Assembly (NCBI GenBank): GCA_010093605.1
Contig: MU004197.1
Coordinates: 1,364,001-1,428,000 of the forward strand
Length of the DNA: 64,000 bases
Reading direction: 5' to 3'
Source: Lophium mytilinum
Lineage: Eukaryota; Ascomycota; Dothideomycetes; Mytilinidiales; Mytilinidiaceae
Shown: positions 600 to 48,076 of the stretch, piece by piece
Position numbering within the stretch: position 1 is the stretch's first letter
Layout of the letters: every line of letters starts with the position of its first letter
The notes under the pieces: model-generated
The model's input: only the letters and a program-made list of their open reading frames with translations
Databases searched by the model: none
What the model was told of the DNA's origin: nothing
Position numbers and translations under genes: made by a program

Positions 600-2260
600 G
601 GGAATGAGACTGCCTCTTGACTAGCTGGCTACCTGACAACTGGGCTACTCCTGACAGTGATGCCTGGCTTCCAAAGTCGCTCTCAAGCCTTGCTGGTATC
701 CATGTGGGTAGGTGCGTAGCTACTCTAATGCGCCATTGAGGTCTACGCAGTAGCTTTTAGACTTCCCTTTGGCTGGCTAGCTTGCCGATAACGGTGCCAC
801 TCCTCACAGCGGCATCTAGCTTCCAAAGCAGTCTTCGAGCAGCCAGCCTAAATTGGAGAACGGCATCGCACATAACCTAGAGACTCTTCTCGGCGATTCC
901 CCCCGGACGATGATTAGGAACCGGAAGTGCCCGTGGACTGGTACAGCTATGCGGTCTTCGATTGCCAACACGATGCAGAGGTCTACGCAGTGAAAAATAG
1001 ACCCTCCTTTGACTACTTCAGCTCATGCTGAACGAGCTCCTCCTCACGGTAGCCTCGAGCGGCCAAGAGCAGGACATTTGGAGTCCCATTTCCGGGTGCC
1101 CGGCTCAAGAATATTACAGTATTTTGTGCAGTACTCCGACCTTCTATGAATCACTTACGGCAATGTCAAGAGCCCGACTGCGAAGACTGGACTGTACGAA
1201 ATTGTAGGTGTTTTTAACAATTTCGAGATCCTTCAACGTGCTACAGATGGTGTAAGAGCACGAGGTCTAAACTGGTGTGTCTAGAACGTTACATTCACAA
1301 AAAATGATCTTGAAAGGTTCTGAGGCAGTCTGCTAGGTCATTTACGAGTGGAAACCTCTTGTCCGCAATATCTTTTAAGGCCAGTCCAAGTACTATCCAT
1401 GCTGTAACAGTACGAGGTCTCATTTACGGTGTGTAGAGCATTACTTTCAATGTGAACCGTCTTGACAGGGTCTAAGGTAGTCTAGTAGGTTGACTACGGT
1501 TGTAAAACTCTTGTTCTCAATGACTCTGAGGTTAGCCAGCATGCTACACATGCTGTAAGAGTACTGGATTTGATATAGGGTGTCTAGAGTGTTACATTCA
1601 GCGACTTCGATCTCAAAAGGGCCTGAGGTAGTCTGCAGGGCCTACTAAGGGTGAAACGATCTTCTTCCCAATAGCTTTGAGGGTATTCAACTTGCCATAC
1701 GTGCCGTGGGAACACCGAGTCTAGTTTGGGGCGTGTAGAACCTTACACTCATCAAAACTAATCTTCAAAGGGACTGAGGTAGTCTGCCAGGCCTACTACG
1801 TGTGCAAATCTCTTATTCTCAATATTTCTGAGGCCAGTCCACCTGCTATAAATGCCGTATGACCATCAGCTCTAATCTAGGGTGTGTAGAGCGGTACATT
1901 CACTGAGAATGGTCTTAAAAGGGTCTGAAGGAGTTTGCTGGGTCTATCACGTGTTCAAATCTCTTACATGAGCTGCTGAACTTGAAGCTTCCAGCAACGT
2001 AGTGGATAGGGCTAGAATTAGCAACCGTGAGCTTCAAATAGCAGCGTCTGAGGTGCTCAAATATACTGTCAAAACTTCAAGTGCGATGTCAAAACCTCAA
2101 CTGTTTAGACTGAACTTGAGGAAAATGCAGCCATTCTCGACATTCCTGAAGCTATCCAACGTGCTATTAGGGCTGCCGTTCGCTCACCTCGTTGATCCGG
2201 TGATTGAAGTGATTAACGTTAACGTTAATTACTTTAACCGGACGGTCTACTAAAATAAGG
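600..2260. repeat. degenerate tandem repeat, ~151 bp period
   Basis: A recurring core ('ctgaggtagtctgc' followed by 'aggtctact') occurs at about 1321, 1473, 1624, 1775 and 1926, that is every 151-152 bp. An earlier related unit is seen as two similar blocks near 620-690 and 770-840. Copies are diverged but colinear, so this is a true tandem array and not dispersed copies. No reading frame is kept between units. Confidence 0.8.
2197..2241. repeat. 45-bp imperfect palindrome at the edge of the AT-rich block
   Basis: The segment begins and ends with CCGG and centres on the perfect 18-bp palindrome attaacgttaacgttaat (2212-2229). Most of the differences between the two arms are G-to-A type, as RIP would leave. 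It lies just outside the left border of the AT-rich block. Confidence 0.7.
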
Positions 2261-2378
2261 TTCACTTACTTAATCTAGAGAGGCCCATTAATTAAACTAT
2301 TAAAGTGCTGTTAAAGCTATTATAAAATTATAGATTTTAGCTACTAGAAGTTAGTAATTCTAGGTTTTTATTATAGCT

Positions 2379-2410
<32 letters not shown>

Positions 2411-5330
2411 AATATTAAGAATAACCCTATATTAACGCGCCTTACCTTTATAGTACCTAAGGGATTAGTATAGATAAAGAAGTTAAGTAGATTAGGTAAG
2501 TTAAAATCTTAGCTATATCTATATAATATTGCTAAGAATATCTATATTAATTAATTAATTACTTTAACTATTAATATTAATTAATTACTTAATAAAGAGC
2601 TTTACTAACTAAGGCTTTTAATTACTTAACGGGGAGGGGCCGTTAATAGTAAGTAATTAAACGGTAGCCCTATATATTATATATACTATAAGAGCTTATA
2701 GTCTAATATAGAGTATATAGAGCTTTATATATACTAAATATTAGTTTAAAATAGTCTAGAGCAGTCTACTAGATTTACTATAAATATAAATATTCTATAT
2801 AGCTCTTCTAATTTAGAAATATATTTATTAAAGCTAAAATATTTAAAAAATACTTTTATATGCTAGTGTTTAAGGTTCCCTACTATATTATTAGAATTAT
2901 AAACACAATATTAAAAGCCTAGAAGCGTAAACTAGTTAGTATAAGTATCTAGCTATTCTTAGTAAGTTTAAAGCTATTTAACGCGCCGTATTTCCCGTAA
3001 AACTACTAGCTCTAATTAGGAGTGCGTTTATTATTATATTTACTATTATTATTCTTAAAATAGTATAGGGTAGTATACTATATTTACTATATACGCAGAA
3101 CTTATATACTACCTATCTAGTCTTAAATGTAAAGCTTTTTATTCTATTTACACTAATTTCCTAATAATAGTAAAGCTATTTAACGCGCTATATATACTAT
3201 AAGCCTATAGGTTCTAATCTAGGGCTTATAGATATATATCTTTACTATAAATATTTTTAGAGCAGTATAGAGTAGTACGCTATATTTACTATTTATATAG
3301 AACTTATATTTAAGCTTTCTACTTTAGAGTTTAAAGCTTTTTAGCCTATTTATACCTATTTCTAATAATTTTAAAGCCCTTTAATGCTAGAAATAGTATA
3401 GAAGTATAGGTTCTAATTTAAGATATATAGATACTTATATTTACTATAACTATTTTTAGAATAGGGTAGAGTAGTCTACTATACTTACTATTTATATAAA
3501 GCTTCTATATAAGCTATTAAATCTAGAATATAAAGCTTTTTAATCTATATATACCTGCCGTTAATACTTCTAAAGCTATTTAACTTAGTATATATAGTTT
3601 AGAAGTATAGTATTTAATCTAGGGCGCGTATATATTTATATTAAATATAATTATTCTAAGAATAGGGTAAGGTAGTCTACTATACTTACTATATCTATAA
3701 AACTCCCTTTTAAGCCCTATACTTTAGAATATAAAGCTATTTAATTTTTACTACGCTACTTTTAATAATTTTAAAGTTATATAATATACTATTAGTATTT
3801 AGAAAAACTAGAGTCTAATATCTAGCCTAGAGATTATTACGTTTACTAAATTTAATTTTAGAATAGCGCGGGGAGGTATACTATATTTACTACGTCCGTA
3901 AAACTCTTATAAGAGCCCTCTACTTTAAAAGGCAAGGTAATTTAATAAGTTCCCGGCTACTTCTAGTAATTCTAAAGCCCGTTAATACGCTATTTATACT
4001 TAAGAAATAGAGTATCTAATTTAGGCTATATAGATCTTTATATCTATTAGATTTATTTTTAAAATAATATAGAGCGGCACGCTATATTTACCGCGTATAT
4101 AAAACGCGACTATAAATTATCTAATATAGGCTATAAAGCTAGTTAGTATAGTATTATAATAGTAGAGAACTAGAGGCTAATATAGAATATAAACGCCTTT
4201 ATATTATATTCTCTCTTTTTAAGAATAGTATAGAGAGGTATACTATACTTACTATATATATAGAACTTTATTATAATATAAAATCTTAAGACTTTAACAT
4301 CCTATGCTCTAGATTTATTCTAAGAAGAGCTACCTCTAACGCCGCTGTACGGCTATTAAAGCCTCTATTTCTATTCTTTATAATATAAGGTCTTAGGAAT
4401 TTAATATTATACGCACGGTATTATACCCTTATAAGCTACCTTAAATAGTACTAGATAGCTATTAAAGTCTACTAATTATACTATATCTAATATAAGGCCT
4501 TTATACTTTAATATTATATATACCCCTTTTAACTTTCTTATAAGCTACTCTAAATGCTATTAAAAATCTCTAAAAATAATATAATTCTACCTTATTTAAT
4601 ATAAAGTCTTAAAACCTTAATATTCTATTTAAATTACACTTATAGTTATAGGCTACCTTAAACGCTATTAAATACCCCTTAAAACCCTATAGATCTATCT
4701 AATTTAATATAAAGCCCTAAAACCTTTATATTCTATTATATTATACTTATAGTTATAGGGTACTCTAAACGCTATTAAATACCCCCTAAAATGCTGTAAT
4801 TCTACTCTATTTAATATAAAGCCTTAAAACCTTTATATCCTCTTTAATTATACTTATAGTTACGGGCTACCTTAAATGCCGCCATACACCTATTAAGATC
4901 CCCGGATACTATCCCTTATAATATAAGCTTGTTGGAATTTTATATTATATGCACGGTATTTACGCCCTTATAAGCTACCTTAGATAGTACTAAACTACTA
5001 TTAAAATACTATAATTCTACCTTATTTAATATAAAGCCTTAAAACCTTTATATTCTATTTAACTTATATTTATAGTTACGGGTTACCTTAAACGCCGTTA
5101 TATACCTATTAAAAGCCCCTAATTCTATCTCTTATAATCTAAGGTTTTAGGAATATAATATTATATACACGGTATTTACGCCCTTATAAGCCACCTTAAA
5201 CGGTACTAAATAGCTATTAAACTACTATAGTCTTGCCTCTTCTAATATAAAGCCTTAAAACCTTAACATTAGAAGCCTAATATCTATACCCCTTAAGCTA
5301 CCTTAAACGACCTTAAAGACCCCTTAAAAC
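2260..5330. repeat. AT-rich, RIP-mutated block
   Basis: Base composition shifts abruptly near 2260 to very AT-rich sequence dominated by TA steps, with CpA and TpG dinucleotides nearly absent, and grades back to normal composition around 5300-5400. This is the expected outcome of repeat-induced point mutation in Pezizomycotina. Inside it a repeat core ('gtagtatactatatttacta'-like) recurs near 3067, 3268, 3469, 3670, 3870, 4070 and 4231, so a ~200 bp tandem period is still readable. No intact coding sequence is present. Confidence 0.85.
2379..2410. repeat. (TAC)n microsatellite
   Basis: About ten uninterrupted TAC/ACT trinucleotides lie within the AT-rich block. Confidence 0.95.
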
Positions 5331-6200
5331 GATGCAGGCTTATAGAGAACTAGGGGAGCTAAAGTAGGGTGCATTTACTTTAACATTACGCACCCAGCAT
5401 CCCATCTATCATGAGCCACCTTAAACGCTGCTAACTACCTATTAAGAACCCTTTTTACACAAGACTTCTACCTCGAGGAGCCACCTTAAACGCCAACAAC
5501 TAGCTATTAAAAGCTCGAAATCAAGCAGCTTCCAATATAAATCCATGAGACTCTAACATCGCGTGCAACACATTTACGCCTCGAGGAGCCACCTCAAACA
5601 CCACCAACCAGCTATTAAAGCCCTAAATCAGGCAGCTTCCAATATGAATCCATGCAACTTTGACATCGTATGCACCCCTTTTTAACCTCGATGTGCCACC
5701 TCAGACGCCGCTATTCATAGGGTAAAAGCCCCCAATCCGGCCCCTTCCAATATACGCTCTTCAGGCTTTGACATCGTGAGCACCAGATTCACACCTCGAT
5801 GAGCCACCTCGAATGCCGCTATTCACATGTCAAGAGTCCCCAACCAGCCCCCTTCTAACCTCAATGAGCCACCTCAAACACCGCTGTCACATGTCACAAG
5901 CCCCCAATCAGCCCACTTCCAATGTATACTCTTCAGACTTTGACATCGTGAGCACCAGATTTGCACCTCGATAAGCCGCCTCAGACAGTGCCAACTAGCT
6001 GTCAAAAGCTCGTATGCACCACATTTTGACCTCGATAGACCACCTCAAACACCGCTATTCACATGTCAAAAGCGCCCAAACAGCCCCATTCCAATATATG
6101 CTTTTCAGACTTTGACAACGTGTGCACTAGATTCACACCTCGATGAGCCACCTCAAACACCGCCAACTCGCTGTCAAAAGCCCCGAATCAGGGTGCTTGC
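4330..6200. repeat. tandem repeat, ~108 bp period with 65-bp short units
   Basis: A core reading 'gccacctcaaac' in the unmutated part and 'gctaccttaaac' in the RIP part occurs near 4330, 4435, 4544, 4652, 4760, 4866, 4974, 5082, 5190, 5297, 5415, 5480, 5588, 5695, 5803, 5868, 5975, 6039 and 6147. Most steps are 105-109 bp; three are 64-65 bp, as if 43 bp were missing. The same unit runs across the border of the AT-rich block, so the AT-rich and normal parts are one array. Confidence 0.85.
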
Positions 6201-15459: not shown

Positions 15460-15913
15460 CTTCCCACGCGTTCCAGCACCACCCATGGCCACTGAACCCG
15501 TACTGTGGGGATCCCCGCCTGATGGGTTTCTCCGCTCGAGCTCCTTGGTAGCTTTGGAGCACCTATTATGTAACGTTTGTTCCACCGCAATGTCTAATAT
15601 CGCAACAATGCTAGCTACCGAAAACACGAAACATTAATCCTTGTCTCTAGTCGTATGGAAAAGATAGAATATGAACGACGAGGTTCCACGGTTATCTATG
15701 GGCATAGACAATGCTAACATTCACATTGTGCATAACATAGGTTTAGACGCAAATGATAAATATGTTGCGACCACGTCACCCCAATACTCCCCAACTTCAC
15801 CCAACTTCTGAATTCTAGGTCCTCACCGCCTGTCGAACCTTCCTAGCTTCTAGCGATCTTCGACATCAACGATTCATTCGAACATACGTCCAACCTCTAT
15901 AACGACGACTAGA
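15460..15913. other. intergenic region upstream of the membrane microprotein array
   Basis: No gene is seen. The ~100 bases before 15914 are CT/AC-rich, typical of a fungal core promoter and leader. Confidence 0.4.
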
Positions 15914-16330
15914 ATGGCGTCGAAGATTACCAGCTCCAGCGCGCTTGAGGCCGCGTTCCCATCGAGCACCACTACCCCCACCCAGACGCTGTTGTCGGCG
16001 CCGAATTCAAGTGCCATCGCGCTCATCACAGCCGCTATCATTGTTGTAGTGCTGGCGACCGTTGTTATCGTTGCCTTGGTCTGTGTTCTTCGCAGGCGCA
16101 AACGCAAGGCACGCGCCAACATGGAGCGCGGTTTCGAGCGCGAGTCGGGATTCAAGACAGTCCCGCTCCAGAACCTGGTCGGGACCAAGATGGCCCATGT
16201 ACTGATCAAAGATATCCCATCCAAGCATCCATCTTCGCCGAAGCATGATCCTCGGTTCGTGATCGGCGACGATGGCGATTCCGATGATGAGAGCAAGGTC
16301 CATCACGACCCCAAGAATGGGGACCGATAG
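15914..16330 (+). CDS. single-pass membrane microprotein, array copy 1
   Basis: 138 residues, no intron. Residues 1-35 are Ser/Thr/Pro-rich. A single transmembrane helix follows (about 36-58, very rich in Ile/Val/Ala), then a basic stop-transfer run LRRRKRKAR and the array's shared motif MERG-x4-SGFKTVPL-x-x-L. An acidic tail (GDDGDSDDES) ends the protein. With no cleavable signal peptide, the expected topology is N-terminus out and basic C-terminus in the cytosol. It is the first of four head-to-tail paralogues at 15.9-19.0 kb and has the longest tail. Function unknown; a membrane adaptor or sensor subunit is only a guess. Confidence 0.75.
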   Translation: MASKITSSSALEAAFPSSTTTPTQTLLSAPNSSAIALITAAIIVVVLATVVIVALVCVLRRRKRKARANMERGFERESGFKTVPLQNLVGTKMAHVLIKDIPSKHPSSPKHDPRFVIGDDGDSDDESKVHHDPKNGDR

Positions 16331-16447
16331 GTGGCCGATGAGAGCAGCTAATACGGCTTGGTTAAAAACTCAAATACGTATCGACAACGACCACTTAGTA
16401 CCGTGTTTGTATTAGGTGGCTAAAATCTAAAGAGACCTTCGCACTAC

Positions 16448-16490
16448 CTATGAGCCGCGCGAGGGCGAAGAATGAAATCCCTTTCTCCTG
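16448..16490 (+). repeat. conserved 3' element, copy 1
   Basis: A block beginning 'ctatgagccgcgcgagg' lies about 118 bases after the stop of copy 1. Related blocks follow copy 3 (18252) and copy 4 (19152) at nearly the same distance, so the duplicated unit includes its 3' flank. It may be part of the 3'UTR or polyadenylation region. Confidence 0.6.
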
Positions 16491-16678
16491 ATTTGTTTAT
16501 GCACAATACTTTCGTGACATTGAAACTTTCAGTGTAAGTTACGTTTCCATCTAGAGGTATACACAATGCTAAAATCCCCAATGTTTAGATATGTATCCAG
16601 GAAGCAAACAATATATAAGTTTCAACTAAACCTCTGGAAATACTCCCAAACCGGACTATTCTATCGAAATTCAAAGCA

Positions 16679-17056
16679 ATGGGACCAATTCCGAACCCGC
16701 CAACCGGCTTCAAGCTTCCGCGGCCGCTCAATCTCACATCACCAGAGTCTGACACCCTGCTCCCACCCAGCAACTTTACCGAGCTTTCGCCTGATTTTCT
16801 GGGACCATTCTTAGATCCTTCTTCGATTGAATACGTGTACAGTGAGCAGTTTCTCGACATAGTGATTATCCTCGGTGTCGTAATGTTCGTGTTCGTGGCT
16901 GCGACCTTGTGCGTGCTCTCGATCTGTGCTTACTGTAGACGTAGGAAGTACGCTGAGGTGGACGCTGAAAGTGGTCTCGAGCAAGACTTGGGCTTCAGGA
17001 CCGTCCCACCGAGATGGTTGAGAGGCGCTCATACAAACCCGTGCTTTTATAGATAA
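16679..17056 (+). CDS. single-pass membrane microprotein, array copy 2 (divergent)
   Basis: 125 residues. The N-terminal ~55 residues are Pro/Ser/Asn-rich, with NLT and NFT sequons. One transmembrane helix (about 60-83) is followed by CRRRKYAEVDAESG and LGFRTVPPRWLRG, a diverged form of the array motif. A TATA-like atatataag lies about 65 bases upstream of the ATG. The frame stops early: just after the stop, in another frame, a segment reads LVFGDEEDS, close to FVIGDDGDS in the tail of copy 1, so this copy appears to have lost its acidic tail through a frameshift. Confidence 0.65.
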   Translation: MGPIPNPPTGFKLPRPLNLTSPESDTLLPPSNFTELSPDFLGPFLDPSSIEYVYSEQFLDIVIILGVVMFVFVAATLCVLSICAYCRRRKYAEVDAESGLEQDLGFRTVPPRWLRGAHTNPCFYR

Positions 17057-17796
17057 AAGGTGATCTCCGATTGGTCTTCGGCGATGAAGAAGACTCGCAT
17101 GCCGATGATTCCCGATCCCAGCGCCAACAGGTTGGCTATTGAGAGAGCGGAGACGCGTCCTCGAAGAAAAATGGCATCTTTCCAGCGCCAACACGGACCG
17201 ATTTCTGTTGCTAGGTGAGTGAGCCCTAGAAGGGTCTATGCGCTGGCGCGTGCAAATGAAACTTGATTTCAATTTCCCCGCAACCGGAACAACCACAATT
17301 CATGCTTCATCATCATCGATATCTCGATCGTTCCATTTAACTCCACCTAAATCACTAGATATGTATCATATTGTTTCCATTACCATCATCGTCACCGCTC
17401 GCTCTTCTTTGTCTGCCAATGTTCTCTGAAATTTCTGACTTTTTTTTCCGGATCCTTCACATTGCCTTCGGACTTCGTTCATCTCTCGTGTCTCATTTGC
17501 CCCGTCCTCTATGCGATCCCACATTGTAAGTGTCTTTCTCACAGCGAACATTCCATGCTTGTCTATAATTGTACAATGTTTACGTCTTTTCCGCATTGTT
17601 CAAATACGTATCTTGGAACGAAATAGTATATAGCTTGCACCTGTCACTACAAACGCTCATCAACTCAGTCTTGTCTTTCCAGTTTAGGATCCATAGAACC
17701 AAAGTTTCTCTGTTCCTAGCTATCAGTCAAGCAATTGAAACGTTCCTGTTTCATATCTCAAACCTGGAACACTTCCACTCAACCACGCCAACAAGC

Positions 17797-18147
17797 ATGG
17801 AAACCCACTTCCACCGCCCAGGCGAGCTCCAATCCACCGAGGCCCCGTCTCCCACTCCTACCATTAATCCCGGACAGCGATTCCTACATGATGCTCAATA
17901 CCGGACTGTGGTGCTGGTAGCTGCCGCCGCTATTGCGGTGCTCCTAGTAACCATAGGCATCGTAGTTTGGGTCTGCGTCTGCCGCAGGCGTAAGCGAAAA
18001 GCGCGCGCTGTCGCTGATGTAGAGCGCGGCTACAAGAACCGAACAGGCTTCAATTCCATCCCACTCCACTGGCTCAAAGGCCCTGGAGGAAAGCCGGCCT
18101 CTAACCAAATAGGACCACACCATGGCTCCAAACCTGGTGGCCGATAG
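17797..18147 (+). CDS. single-pass membrane microprotein, array copy 3
   Basis: 116 residues from the ATG at 17797 (gcATGGAA). Upstream in-frame codons read like leader sequence and not protein. After a Pro/Thr/Ser-rich N-terminus (residues 1-38) comes one transmembrane helix (about 39-64), the basic run CRRRKRKAR, then VERG-x4-TGFNSIPLHWLKG and a Gly/His/Pro-rich tail. It is closest to copy 4 in the motif region. Confidence 0.75.
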   Translation: METHFHRPGELQSTEAPSPTPTINPGQRFLHDAQYRTVVLVAAAAIAVLLVTIGIVVWVCVCRRRKRKARAVADVERGYKNRTGFNSIPLHWLKGPGGKPASNQIGPHHGSKPGGR

Positions 18148-18251
18148 GTGAAGAGCTAAGGGGTTAGAGCCCCCTTCGACTGACAGGGTGCGATATTCGC
18201 ACCCGATCACTATGTGTTAGCCTATCGGGACCCTAACATGTGTCGCGCTGC

Positions 18252-18300
18252 CTATGAGACGCGCTAAGGTAAACAACGAACCACTTTCCCTCCGAACTTA
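18252..18300 (+). repeat. conserved 3' element, copy 3
   Basis: A block beginning 'ctatgagacgcgctaagg', about 105 bases after the stop of copy 3, matches the blocks at 16448 and 19152. Confidence 0.6.
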
Positions 18301-18726
18301 AGTTCCATGCAGTCCTGATGTGAAGTCTTTCCAGTGTCATAAAACATACCTTTCTAAACTTTCATACCCACTTTGTTCTTCCGCCATGTCTAGAACTCAA
18401 CACCGTTTACTGTGCCGGGACACTTCTTTTCTCGTGTCTAGCCTTTCATTGCCTGTACCAGCATTGGGTGAGTATATGAACATTGGGTACCCATTCTTGC
18501 CTAGATTCAGAACACTAATAGTCACATTGTGCAGATACAATATAATCTGAATTATAGGTATATATATCTTATCCACACCTCTACAAGCGCTTCGTACTTC
18601 ATTGACTGTTTTCGAAACTGGGAACCACATGTCAAATTGTTCCACCTCCAGCTTTTCAAAAGTCACAAGATTTACCCCACAATCGTGAACGCCTTGGAGG
18701 CCTCCACGCCGTCCAAGCTGGTCACA

Positions 18727-19029
18727 ATGACCACGGACTTCCTTCGACCTCGTTCCACCGAGGTCGCTTCAGCCACACCCACCTCCACGCCAGGTGCCTC
18801 GCCAGGCAAGTCTGGATTGAACCGCAACATCGCCATCGTTGTCTTCGCAGTCCTCCTTACGACCGTCATCGTTGTGGTTCTCTGCATACACCGCAGGCGC
18901 CTGAAGAAGGCGGAGGCCGACATTGAGCGCGGATACGAAGACGAATCCGGGTTCCACTCCATCCCGCTGCATTGGCTTCAAGGGCCTGGAGTGAACCGCA
19001 CTCCTTCTTCACCGACGCCGAATGCATAG
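18727..19029 (+). CDS. single-pass membrane microprotein, array copy 4
   Basis: 100 residues from the ATG at 18727 (gtcacaATGACC). A Thr/Ser/Pro-rich N-terminus (1-35) is followed by one transmembrane helix (about 37-57), HRRRLKKAEAD, then IERG-x4-SGFHSIPLHWLQG and a short Pro/Ser tail. The motif IPLHWL is identical to copy 3, so these two are the youngest pair or are kept alike by selection or conversion. Confidence 0.75.
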   Translation: MTTDFLRPRSTEVASATPTSTPGASPGKSGLNRNIAIVVFAVLLTTVIVVVLCIHRRRLKKAEADIERGYEDESGFHSIPLHWLQGPGVNRTPSSPTPNA

Positions 19030-19151
19030 AGGTAGGAAACCTTATTCGTAGTTCCAACTCATCTGCGAGAAAGTGGGTGCGAAATACCCACCCTGGACCT
19101 GCCACCGCCGCTGTGAGGCAATTAGTATCTGAACAAGCCTTTGAGCTGCCC

Positions 19152-19200
19152 CTACGACGCGCTAAGGTAGACAATAAACCACATTCCCCCAAACTTCCTG
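19152..19200 (+). repeat. conserved 3' element, copy 4
   Basis: A block beginning 'ctacgacgcgctaaggtag', about 123 bases after the stop of copy 4, matches those after copies 1 and 3. Confidence 0.6.
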
Positions 19201-19405
19201 TACCATGCTCACGTGATATTGCCAGTGCTTCATGCTATACAGAAGACCCCAGTCTGTCAGAAATAAAATGAAAGATACCAAAACCCACTCTATTTCCGAC
19301 CCATGCCACGTGGAATGCTAACAAGACATCCTCTAGATATATAATTACCTCGCTGCCCCAACTCCTCTTCTGCTTGCCCAACACCACTGCCATGAGCGCC
19401 CCTAG

Positions 19406-23973: not shown

Positions 23974-25137
23974 CTATCCCGTCGTCTCGTCCCTCATCTG
24001 CTTCAAAAACCCAATCACCGGCGCCCCACCCGTCCCCTTCACCTCCCCAACCCCCTCCTCTTTCCCATCTTTCTTCGCCGGCAAAACAACATACCGCGTA
24101 ACCACAATAATATGCCCATTCCTAAACACCTTCAACGCCTCAAGGCAACCCCGATACGCAGCAGCCAACCCGCCCTCCATTCCCCTTTCCTCCACAAACC
24201 GCCTCACATCCGCCACAGCACCAACATCCTCCAAAAACCTCCGATGCGCTCCAGGCATCAGCGCCCTCATCTCGCTAACAACACACGCCGCCTCCTCACC
24301 ATGCTGAATCCCAAGCACAACATCGCAAAGCTGGAACAGGGAGCTCTGCGCCGCGCTCCCGCCGCCATACCGCCCTACCCTCTCCTCTGTCCCCGTGGTA
24401 GCGCCAACGTCGTAGACTAACCCGTTGGGGAGACTCCGGCTACCTGCGAGGAAGGGGCGGATATCGCAATAGAAGCGGCGCGGGTTGAGCCGCTCGTGCA
24501 TGCGCTGCAGCAGCGGCGCCAGCTCCGTCAAAACATCTGTTACCGCTTGCAGATTCGTAGTCAAAGCTTCAACATCGGTGCGACGAACCGCTTCGATGGC
24601 GCTGAGAAGGTTGGGGATTATCGGCGCGCCGCGGGATTCGATCGCGACGGAGACCATGTAGAACCAGCTCTCGTCTTCTGTGGCTGTGAAGGTATGCAAC
24701 GCTTTTAGATTGGCTGGGTCGTTTAGCGGCTGGCCTTGAAGGGGACGGAAGTTCCAGAGGCATAGTGCCGCGTATGTGATGGTTGGGGGTATGTCGAGCT
24801 TGTCGCATACCTCTAGCAATGGGATTGAGAGGCTGGCGGGAAGCTTTTCGGCTGGGGGTTGCTCGCCCCAGATGTAGGCATGGGCGAGGAAGGTAAGAAG
24901 AGTGTAGGCGCGCTGGTACTCGGGTACTGTGTTCAGGTTGGTTGTAGAAAGAGTTGGCAGGGCATGGATGGAGGAGCGGATGATTTTCGAGGAGATGTGG
25001 CGGGGGAGGTTGGCGATGGTGGATTCCCACGGGGTGTAGTGAGGATCAGAGAGATGGGCTAGAGGCGGGTTTGGAGGAAGGAAGCCAGTGGTAGCGCTCA
25101 TGCCGTAGTCTTCCAGTTTGGGGATTTGGGGATGCAT
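23974..25137 (-). CDS. ido: indoleamine 2,3-dioxygenase family protein
   Basis: Single exon, 387 residues, close to the usual family length. Family landmarks in order: LWNFRPL, RFYCDIRPFLAGS, GGSAAQSSLFQLCD, MPGAHRRFL and FRNGHIIVVTRYV, where H342 is the expected proximal haem ligand. IDO opens the pyrrole ring of tryptophan to N-formylkynurenine, the first step toward NAD in fungi, in the cytosol. Filamentous fungi often carry several IDO paralogues with different affinities, so this may be the housekeeping BNA2-type enzyme or a low-activity paralogue. Neighbours give no further clue. Confidence 0.93.
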   Translation of the reverse strand: MHPQIPKLEDYGMSATTGFLPPNPPLAHLSDPHYTPWESTIANLPRHISSKIIRSSIHALPTLSTTNLNTVPEYQRAYTLLTFLAHAYIWGEQPPAEKLPASLSIPLLEVCDKLDIPPTITYAALCLWNFRPLQGQPLNDPANLKALHTFTATEDESWFYMVSVAIESRGAPIIPNLLSAIEAVRRTDVEALTTNLQAVTDVLTELAPLLQRMHERLNPRRFYCDIRPFLAGSRSLPNGLVYDVGATTGTEERVGRYGGGSAAQSSLFQLCDVVLGIQHGEEAACVVSEMRALMPGAHRRFLEDVGAVADVRRFVEERGMEGGLAAAYRGCLEALKVFRNGHIIVVTRYVVLPAKKDGKEEGVGEVKGTGGAPVIGFLKQMRDETTG

Positions 25138-25858: not shown

Positions 25859-28800
25859 TCAGTACGGTCGATCCCGTCCACCCTCCTTCTCTTGTTTATC
25901 CGGCACCAAAGTCTCCGAGCTCTCTCCTGCGCCATCGAGATCTCTCGCAATCGGTTTCCTCAAACTCTCCCCTTTGGCGACGACTCGCTTGATCAGCGCG
26001 ACTAGTTCGTCGACTTTGAATGGTTTGGAAATGACTTCGTCCATCCCCGAACCTAGCATCTCCGACCTTTGTTCCTCGCGGACATTGGCAGATACCCCGA
26101 CGATCGGACCCCAGCCTACCTCTTCCGCTTCCATGAGCTCGCGGATCACGAGTGTGGCGGAGTTGCCATCCATGACGGGCATTTCTTGGTCCATCAAGAT
26201 ACAAGAGAAAGAAGGAAGCTTGGTGGACGTGAGGTAATCATGAGCGGGCGGAGAAGGTGACGGTGTAGGTAGAGCTTGAGCCAAGGAATGGTGAGAGCTA
26301 ACAGCATGTGGAGCTGAGGATTTAGCAAGGGCTTTAACAGCATCAATAGCCTCCTGGCCATTGTTTGCCGTTGTAACCACGAAGCCTTTAGACTGTAGCT
26401 GGCGCTTGAGGACCTTTTGGTTGATGAGGTTGTCCTCGGCAAGGAGGAGGGTGGGTTTCGGCTCTGCCTCTTTTTCTGGGAGCTGGGTTGATGCATCTAT
26501 GCCATCGGCGACGCCATTAGCTTTCACACTGCTCATTTGCTTTGCCGTAGCGGGCTCTTCTTTCTCCTCCCTCTTCTGTTGTCGTTTGCTCTGCCCAGTC
26601 TTCCGATCTATCCCTCCAGGCAGCTTCTGCCTTCGACGTTCCGGGTCATCCTCGATCTTTTTGTCGACTATTCTTGACACCTTTGCTGTTTCCTCGTGAC
26701 GATCACTGCTATATTCGCCTGGGTGGGCCTCAGGCCTGTATTCGACAGGCGGTTCATTTAGAGTCTTCGGTATCTCTTCCCCCGTAACTCCAGGCTGCGA
26801 GCTTATGCTGACAATCTTAGGCCTTTGACTCCCTGCGCTGGCTGGGCTGAGACTACTCCCCGCGCTGCTTGGGCTTAAACTTTCGTTTGATTCATCAACC
26901 TCCCAGGGCTTAGGTCCCCTCTCCATGACCGTATCGATGCTCATGGTGGAGATGTTTCTATTGTAGGCTGGTCTGTTGCTGAAGGCAGATGGGCTGACGG
27001 CGGATTTACTTCTGCTGTATGACGGACGGGGAGAAAGCTGTGATGGGCGTGGAGAGACTTGTGGGATAGTGCTGCTGGAGGCCGTTCGGGACGACCTAAC
27101 GGAAACGCCGCGGGAGAGAGGAGGGCGACCGGACTCAGAGGACCCGTCTGAGCGGCGGACTTTGAAGAAAAACCCAAACGTGCTGCCTTCGCCTTCTTTG
27201 CTGCTGACGCCAATGTCACCGCCGTGGAGCTGGCAGACTAGGAAGTTTCAGCCAAGAGCTTAGTTAGAAAGAGCCAAGAGATCTAACTTACGTTTCCGAG
27301 AGATGAACAAGCCTAGTCCAGAGCCGCCATACTTCTCCTGCGTCTTTGGTGTGGCCTGCCTGAACCGCTCGAATAGTTTAACCTGGTTTTCTAAGTTGAT
27401 GCCAATCCCAGTATCCTTGATTGCAACCATAAGGTAAAGTGACTGTCCGCTTCCCCAATCGCTACTCATCGTGGAGTCCATATGAAATGCGTCCGTTTCC
27501 GAGTCGAAGAATACTACATTCGGCGGATAACTTGTCGGGCGTTCCAAACTAGCGCCCATTGCCACTGTGATCTTCCTCTCACCATGCTTTTTGGCCGTGA
27601 ATTTGATCGCGTTGGTGACCAGATTCACAAGCACTTGTTTAATGCGATTGATGTCGGCAACTACATAGTCGATTTCTTGATTCTGGTAGGACACGTCCAT
27701 GGCGTACTCAAATTCGATCTTCTTCGCCTTGAACTCGGAGCTAAAGACTTTGAGCGATTTAGACAAATCCCATTTTGGCTGAACAACACGAGGAATTAGG
27801 GAGAGCATCATTGAGTCGAGTTTGGAGAATGATAAAATGTCGTCGACGAGCACGGATTGGTGTGAGACACATAGGAGTATAGTGTCGGCTGCGTCTTTGA
27901 TATCTTCGAGCTGTTGCTCTTGCCCTTTGACTACCTTTGAGATCTCGGTAGACACATCCTTGATTTCTTCTGCTAAATGAAGAACAGCGCTGAGCGGGTT
28001 CCGGATCTGCCATGCATCAGTCTGCAAGTGCTCTTCGACTACGATTAAATGGACATACCTCGTGAGATACCATATCAATAAATCCTACAAGTGATTTTAG
28101 TTGTCGTTTCGATATTCTAACTATGACGGCTGGACACTTACTCTCTTGCTGTTCCTTCCTCTCCTGCGCATTATTCGCGACCTTCTCCTGTGCAATCTCG
28201 GCGCACTTAATCTCTGTAATGTCCACGAGTGCACAGATAAACCCGGCTTCGGCTTCGTCGCTCAACGGCCTCAGTAGAAATAACCTCCACTGCTCACTAT
28301 CATCCTGAGACAGACATCTGAATTCCACCCGTAACTCATCCCGGGCTGAGAAGGCTCTCCGATATGCAGTCATGACACGTTCGTAGTCCCTGGGATCGAT
28401 GCTCTCTGGCCAAGCGCGAAAATCTTTGCTCGTCTTATTTGTTGTCAGCTTGAAAAAGCCGTCATTAACGAACACCGCTTCGGCTTCTGAGTCCAGAATG
28501 GCGAGGCCGTTGGGCAGCAGCTCCGCAAAACGCCGGAAGAGCTGTGTCTGCTTCTCATCGACTTGGTGGTCCTCTTTTCGCGTTTGTTGGCTCCCTGAGC
28601 CCTTTGTCCGCGTAGCATCGTGTTGCTGCATCGAAAGTCCAGCCCAAGATATAGAGCGCTCGACGGTCGAATTCTGTAGTAGCTGAGCGAGCACGCCGGT
28701 GCGATGACCGTTAGCTTCGAGGAGGGTACTCATGATAATTGTAGAGTCGGGTTCGTAGTCTGGGGTATTTGGTAGGAAGAACCTGCTCGCTATTCCGAAT

Positions 28801-46849: not shown

Positions 46850-48076
46850 ATGATGCGGGGATTTGCTGTGATTTGCTTTCTCGCCCCACTGCTGCACGCT
46901 GGCGCAGCCGCATTTGATGAATTTGAAGGCTCAGTCCCAATGAAATTTGGCAATCTCGATGGCCCAGTTCAATCGCCAAACAACCTTACCTCAGATCTTG
47001 AAAAGAGAGATGACGTGGGCTGCTACTTCCACGGATTGAGTGGTCATTATTGCTTTGTCGGCCAGATTTGTTGCTATGACAATCAGAACAACGAAGGCTG
47101 TTGTCCAAGTGACGGCCGGTGCTGCGGTACTATATGCTGTTTGTCTGGGTACGTTCGCCTTCCACGTCCCCAAAATGACTATTGAGTTGCAATAGGACAC
47201 CGCTGACGACTATATACTTCCAGATACCAGTGTGCATGGTCTGACCAGTAAGTTCAATATTTCCGTTTGATCTCGGAAGACTTCGAGTTGATCAATATAC
47301 TTAGAACCTCACAAGCATGCTGTCCTATCGGCGGAAATTGTGGTGATCCAACAGTGACCGACACAGTAACAGAGACCGATTATATCACCCAGACGGAGGT
47401 CGAGACAACGGTGGACAACGTCTACATCACGGATTTTGAGACCGTCACAAACGTCCAATACGTCACCGACCTCGCGACCGAGACTCGCGATAACACCATT
47501 CGAGAAACTCAGACGAAAGACAACACGGTCCACGAGACCCAGGTCAATACCATCACCAAAGAGGCCTCCACGGTTGTCCTGACCCAAATTTTTATCAGCG
47601 TCAACAGCGCTGGCCAAACCATCGTCCAGACCACGGCCGTCCAGTCCGTTGTATCGGCGGCAGCAGCGACGAACTCCGACGTGTGTATTGGCACCTCAAA
47701 GAAACAAAGCGACGTCGGAGCCATCGTTGGTGGTGCCGTAGGCGGCGTGGCTTTCATCGCTCTTCTCGCCGCCCTGCTCTTCATCGGCAATAAGAAGGGC
47801 TATTTCGAAAAGAAAGAGAAACATCCCACCTATCCACCCGTTTCGCTTCCTGTGCCCCTTGGTGGCGAGCCTAAGGGATTTGGCCAGCCTCAGTCAGTTC
47901 CAATGTCACCAGCGAGCACGACTCGGAACACGATGACACCGGTTCCACCGTACGCTGCGCAACCCTACGCAGCGCAACCGCAATCTGGATATGTGCAAAG
48001 GCCGCATTACGCGAATGAGATGGAAGCAAGTGGGCGCGGGTGGGACAATTCCACCAATAGTCAGCATTATCGTTAG
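46850..48076 (+). CDS. cysteine-rich single-pass cell-surface protein
   Basis: Exons are 46850-47148, 47224-47247 (a 24-nt micro-exon) and 47305-48076, with introns of 75 and 57 nt, giving 364 residues. A signal peptide (MMRGFAVICFLAPLLHAGAA) precedes a cysteine-rich ectodomain with CC pairs (residues about 58-118) and a Thr/Glu/Val-rich, probably O-glycosylated stalk. A glycine-rich transmembrane helix follows (AIVGGAVGGVAFIALLAALL), then a Pro-rich cytosolic tail with two PYAAQ repeats. The layout is like fungal wall-stress sensors and other Cys-rich surface proteins; no specific family is identified. The YQCAWSD micro-exon keeps the cysteine spacing, which supports the splicing. Confidence 0.8.

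Follow-up and report, generated by a model that had tools for sequence, protein, structure and literature searches.

The window, which is the whole 64-kb stretch of DNA that was analysed, carries four tandem genes (g1 to g4) that together with a dispersed fifth copy (g5) form a real family of small membrane proteins, unnamed, of an ordinary kind and with at least five members. The five are true paralogues, and the family is under constraint at the protein level that is strongest just inside the membrane. With a probability of roughly 0.45, we read them as an unnamed family whose members span the membrane once, N-out/C-in, and whose short inner peptide docks or lies along the inner leaflet; it would have multiplied by tandem duplication of whole units and have loosely held ends.

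The four genes of the array lie head-to-tail on the forward strand, all are ATG-initiated, and they encode proteins of 138 (g1, 15914..16330), 125 (g2, 16679..17056), 116 (g3, 17797..18147) and 100 aa (g4, 18727..19029), so that the array of four genes for 100-138 residue proteins described in an earlier note on this DNA was confirmed. The first was assigned as a single-pass membrane protein from its ORF, paralogy, hydropathy and charge, and is the member with the longest tail, which is acidic (GDDGDSDDES). The assignments of the other three are based on ORF (with an ATG start in g4), homology and an inner-segment profile; g2 is the most diverged of the tandem members, and the frame of g3 stays open further upstream. 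In the own genome (43.18 Mb, 24 contigs) the array is located at contig C17:1379914-1383029. By hydropathy, each of g1-g4 has a single hydrophobic helix (2.9-3.2 as the best mean over 21 residues), in agreement with the one membrane helix per protein that had been proposed. Across g1-g5, the sole hydrophobic segment begins at residue 35-61 and the outer stretch ahead of the helix comprises 32-63 residues.

The paralogy was examined by similarity searches within the own genome. Using g3 as tblastn query, matches were obtained to g4 (E 3e-18), g1 (2e-14), g2 (2e-5) and g5 (5e-4), and the other members used as queries agree with this result. Given that the helix and the arginines by themselves match many proteins weakly, the inner segment was tested alone. 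Among 905 reading frames, which came from the window together with a 30-kb part of contig C23, leave-one-out profiles of this segment recovered the held-out member at E 4e-11 (g1), 1e-5 (g2), 6e-13 (g3), 7e-17 (g4) and 7e-6 (g5), with the top non-member at E 0.076. The previous claim of an array of four paralogues was thus borne out, with E values of 1e-5 to 7e-17 over five members. Weaker own-genome matches on C1, C2, C4, C6 (three), C7, C9, C12, C14 (two) and C18 were rejected as members: none couples a helix to the inner motif, as judged by reading the frames for 10 of the 12 and from ORF lists for the other two. The C1 match (L012) has IPLKCL in common with g5, but its frame has no helix and lies opposite a 311-aa frame. 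The own-genome member counts are lower bounds, as they cover the best candidates in six frames. When the g3 inner segment was used as the genome query, g1-g4 and one more match were found (C17:236461, a 59-aa frame, E 1.5) and g5 was missed, which means that such a query may also overlook other kinds of proteins with the motif. For comparison, the motif pairs of fungal amyloid signalling are marked by a second copy of their short motif on an NLR-type receptor of the genome concerned.

The fifth member, g5 (C23:569348-569671, reverse strand, 107 aa), was identified by own-genome tblastn and by the inner-segment profile. It has the same helix and an RRRK run; the inner peptide that follows reads GYEHQSGFPTIPLKCL and is preceded by a two-residue insertion (ER-AK-GY). 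The gene is found ~18.5 kb from the end of contig C23, and no telomere repeat is present in the last 30 kb of this contig. It sits within a run of five same-strand ORFs (C23:566053-570609, reverse strand), each with one likely helix, four of them called by hydropathy and that of the Pro-rich ORF by eye. The run consists of an ORF of 96 aa (ending in PPPAAYKP), g5, the Pro-rich ORF, whose start is uncertain (ending in PPSYREHRQSIS), one of ~187 aa and one of 152 aa (ending in LPVYEEDMPPVYKT). As a background rate, 13 of the 83 ATG ORFs of at least 90 aa in the window carry exactly one helix, g1-g4 counted in. Of the four neighbours of g5, three show gene-like codon choice, whereas the Pro-rich one does not (252/1000 nulls). 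None of the neighbours had a Pfam match above cut-off, and for the three other than the 96-aa ORF no clear paralogue was found in the own genome (other matches at E 0.018 and 0.028). The 187-aa neighbour was rejected as a divergent member, with E 3.9 in one search and 0.076 at best in the inner-segment profiles. Two of the neighbours have PPxY ends, which recall the adaptors of the Rsp5 ligase.

Regarding the motif, the inner ERG-x4-GF signature noted before is real as a shared feature, but its spacing is x5, and the full form, E-R-G-[YF]-x4-G-F-x-[ST]-[IV]-P-L-x-x-L, is present in three of the five members only (g1, g3 and g4). The g2 variant (ESGL...GFRTVPPRWL) shows three departures (S for R, L for Y/F and P for L), that of g5 carries the two inserted residues, and the W before the last L occurs in g2, g3 and g4 only. 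Similarly, a basic run does follow the helix, but the pattern RRR-x-x-K/Y-A does not describe all members, since the run of g2 is one residue shorter (RRRKYA). The residues M1, C, R, E, G, G, F, P and L are invariant in g1-g5. A Ser/Thr/Pro-rich N-terminus, also part of the original description, applies to g1 (50%) and g4 (47%) but is not constant, with 37% in g2, 31% in g3 and 17% in g5; given the value of g5, this richness is not a family-defining feature. The outer parts of g1 and g4, combined with a single helix and a short conserved inner tail, would suit miniature wall-stress sensors like Wsc/Mid2, which would monitor the wall through an O-mannosylated stub on the outside and recruit a signalling factor with the tail inside; PMC6469404 describes Wsc/Mid2 as Ser/Thr-rich on the outside, with a short Rom2p-binding tail. 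We consider such a role quite improbable, given the lack of a signal-peptide-like segment, an outer part of 32-63 aa, the composition of g5, and the absence of the cysteine-rich WSC domain (Wsc branch) among the Pfam matches of g1-g5 listed at E up to 5.

The DNA around the genes was compared using 300-nt stretches, aligned pairwise and scored against 500 dinucleotide shuffles. The upstream DNA of g1-g4 beats all 500 shuffles in five of six pairs, the exception being g2-g4 (80/500 shuffles reach the score), and the downstream DNA in three of six (exceptions: g1-g2, 14/500; g2-g3, 292/500; g2-g4, 490/500). Since the flanks of the tandem copies align, g1-g4 probably arose by duplication of whole units. 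All the blocks are on the forward strand. The g1 upstream block (15627..15819) aligns to the upstream region of g2 and contains CACATTGTGC, with the pairs g1-g2, g1-g3 and g1-g4 all above 500/500 shuffles. The upstream blocks of g3 (17517..17796) and g4 (18456..18718) align to each other; the latter contains CACATTGTGC and then GTATATATA, and the former has CATTGT ~30 nt ahead of GTATATA, that is, ahead of a TATATA box in the same arrangement as in g4. Downstream, the g3 block (18247..18319) shares 71% identity over 73 nt with its g4 partner (19145..19217). The sequence CACATTGT, possibly an HMG-box site judging by its core, is found upstream of g1 and g4, with CATTGT upstream of g3 and CAATGT upstream of g2. 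The upstream similarity suggests that g1-g4 may be under common regulation. For g5, none of the eight comparisons of its flanks with those of g1-g4 went beyond all shuffles, and no promoter similarity was found upstream of it.

Within the array, g2 might be drifting and perhaps decaying as a copy. This is suggested by its altered motif and by the DNA past its stop, where 17053..17142 (forward strand), overlapping the stop codon in another frame, may be what is left of an acidic tail like that of g1; in the local alignment to the g1 tail, its score is reached by 16 of 5000 shuffles. A g2 intron that would join the end of the gene to the acidic-tail frame was considered but set aside, as the donor is poor by eye and splicing would cost part of the motif.

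Several other features were observed in the window. About 10 kb to the left of the array, an AT-rich island (2001-6000) has a GC content of 27% and 34% in two 2-kb blocks, versus 48-60% elsewhere, and could represent a transposon altered by repeat-induced mutation. An indoleamine 2,3-dioxygenase gene (PF01231, E 6e-129) lies at 23974-25137 (reverse strand). A hybrid histidine kinase can be read in several exon-like ORFs (25859-28733, reverse strand), with Response_reg at 25862-26944 and HisKA and HATPase_c at 27260-28078. Further on, 46850-48076 (forward strand) encodes a cysteine-rich part, followed in a second ORF by a stretch rich in Thr, a single helix and a cytosolic tail; Pfam gave no match at E 0.01 or better, and the arrangement resembles that of the larger surface proteins, spanning the membrane once, that are common in fungi.

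Sequence divergence among the members was used as a measure of constraint. The inner-segment dN (0.23-0.68) is below that of the helix (0.35-0.90) and that of the outer part (0.61-1.68) in all ten pairs of g1-g5, which supports the claim that the motif part is the best conserved, even if once marginally, by 0.01 (g1-g3, 0.34 versus 0.35 in the helix). Whole-protein dS ranges from 1.28 to saturated in the ten pairs, which makes dN/dS ratios rough. The comparison of outer and inner parts that had been proposed as a check therefore confirms that constraint is strongest on the inner part, but with dS this high no positive selection can be inferred on the outer parts. Loose constraint suffices to account for their divergence, short disordered stubs being free to drift. 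The same numbers bear on the possibility that these proteins are pump or transporter regulators like FXYD or Pmp1, in which the helix is active and the basic inner segment merely anchors. The proteins fit such a regulator in size, in having one helix with a basic flank and in their pattern of charges; however, the dN of the helix exceeds that of the inner peptide in 10/10 pairs (one by just 0.01), and no such Pfam family is listed for g1-g5 at E up to 5, which makes this reading unlikely. Helices tolerate hydrophobic swaps, and the lower conservation of the helix is therefore no proof that function resides in the inner peptide, which would be the likeliest working part. Sequence-based membership tests place the family neither among the pump regulators nor among the wall sensors, although the proteins may still work like either.

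The synonymous codon preference of g1-g5, scored against nine long ORFs of the window that were assumed to be genes, is gene-like, with 0, 4, 0, 0 and 0 of 1000 composition-matched nulls reaching the respective values. In the six-frame codon score, the gene frame comes top in two of the five (g1 and g4), and an antisense frame is slightly higher in g2, g3 and g5. The frame scores of these three would be compatible with a young orphan family that undergoes birth-and-death and has little function, its similarity stemming from recent duplication and not from selection, as would the degenerate state of g2, the single tandem cluster with diverging flanks, and the lack of a relative beyond the own genome in the viral, prokaryote and plasmid collections searched. 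Against this stands the excess of third-position divergence (third codon positions are the most divergent in 10/10 whole-protein pairs), which with a dS of at least 1.28 indicates that the copies are not recent, and the inner peptide has nonetheless been held. Moreover, the dispersed g5 retains most of the motif despite unalignable flanks, and synonymous codon choice is gene-like. We give the orphan scenario a low probability.

For the reading as N-out/C-in single-pass proteins, the 15 residues that follow the helix carry a net charge of +7, 0, +6, +3 and +5 in g1-g5, versus 0, -3, +1, +1 and +1 ahead of it, from which an N-out/C-in topology is inferred by the positive-inside rule. The basic C-terminal part would face the cytosol, and the short N-terminal part the lumen or the outside. 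As no signal-peptide-like segment was detected by hydropathy before the helix in g1-g5, the helix would double as a (reverse) signal anchor, and a polybasic stop-transfer run just inside the membrane would be followed by the conserved, probably unstructured peptide. An AlphaFold2 model of g1, based on the four-sequence alignment, shows one helix (residues 30-78) at an overall mean pLDDT of 58.9; the block means are 85-97 for residues 31-60, 69 for 61-70, 51 for 71-80 and 44-50 beyond, and no folded module is predicted with confidence past the helix. The anchored docking module of the earlier note is therefore not supported: with an inner part that has no confident predicted fold in g1, it would act as a linear motif or along the membrane, a linear peptide at best. 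Its wider functional picture, in which a common inner part docks and variable outer parts are presented, is plausible. The inner peptide would most likely dock to one common partner or lie along the inner leaflet, whereas the outer stub and the tail, loosely constrained, would be free to diverge. The four tandem copies would derive from duplication of whole transcription units, promoter and 3' end included, and the fifth would have dispersed, with flanks that can no longer be aligned. The genes are presumably expressed.

A more far-reaching proposal sees in the inner peptide a membrane-proximal docking signal of an undescribed kind, with tandem co-regulated proteins routing or presenting different outer stubs to one partner and the five-gene run on C23 as a second assembly of the same system. 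We regard this as quite unlikely. Small fungal membrane proteins of such a class are mostly annotated as hypothetical, and the inner peptide, if truly a docking signal, would offer a way to approach them.

No named family was recognised in the earlier note, and the library searches agree. Pfam and NCBIfam profiles gave nothing above curated cut-offs for g1-g5, and membership in a library family was rejected, all matches being sub-threshold. The best NCBIfam match (E 1.5e-4) is that of g5 to DsbI, at 21.2 bits versus 212 required, and the best Pfam scores are 17.4 versus 23.3 bits for DAG1 (g3), 17.8 versus 28.9 for EphA2_TM (g1) and 14.3 versus 27.1 for TM_ErbB1 (g1). The best PHROG match (E 3e-4, one member) is to an entry with no name or function, and the best PDB matches are to beta-dystroglycan (0.0073, g3) and the alphavirus E2 tail (0.016, five-member profile). 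In viral contigs, 191 (g3) and 21 (g1) pattern matches were obtained and none was confirmed, nor was any of the 80 found in prokaryote genomes with three members as queries; plasmids searched with g3 yielded no relative. Absence from these three collections is as expected. Among the titles and abstract openings listed in literature searches, none describes such a family.

Among known systems, the transmembrane-juxtamembrane segments of beta-dystroglycan, EphA2 and ErbB resemble g1-g5 at weak scores in having a hydrophobic helix followed by arginines and lysines. They differ in that all remain below the Pfam curated cut-offs and many of the matched stretches end before GF; some, such as EphA2_TM in g1 and g4, extend to GF, at sub-threshold scores. 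Rsp5 adaptors of the Rcr/Bsd2 type are small fungal membrane proteins with PPxY tails, and are alike in being small and in carrying a short cytosolic linear motif; PPxY is absent from all five sequences. The Wsc/Mid2 sensors share the Ser/Thr-rich outer part (with some members), the one helix and the short cytosolic tail. Their outer parts are far longer, however, and a long Ser/Thr-rich outer part of this type is not seen here, where 32-63 residues with a Ser+Thr+Pro content of 17-50% precede the helix, without a signal-peptide-like segment. Finally, FXYD and yeast Pmp1 are single-span, membrane-embedded regulators of pumps and ATPases, and the family resembles them in size, single helix, N-out/C-in charge pattern and post-helix arginines, but its conservation peaks after the helix rather than within it.
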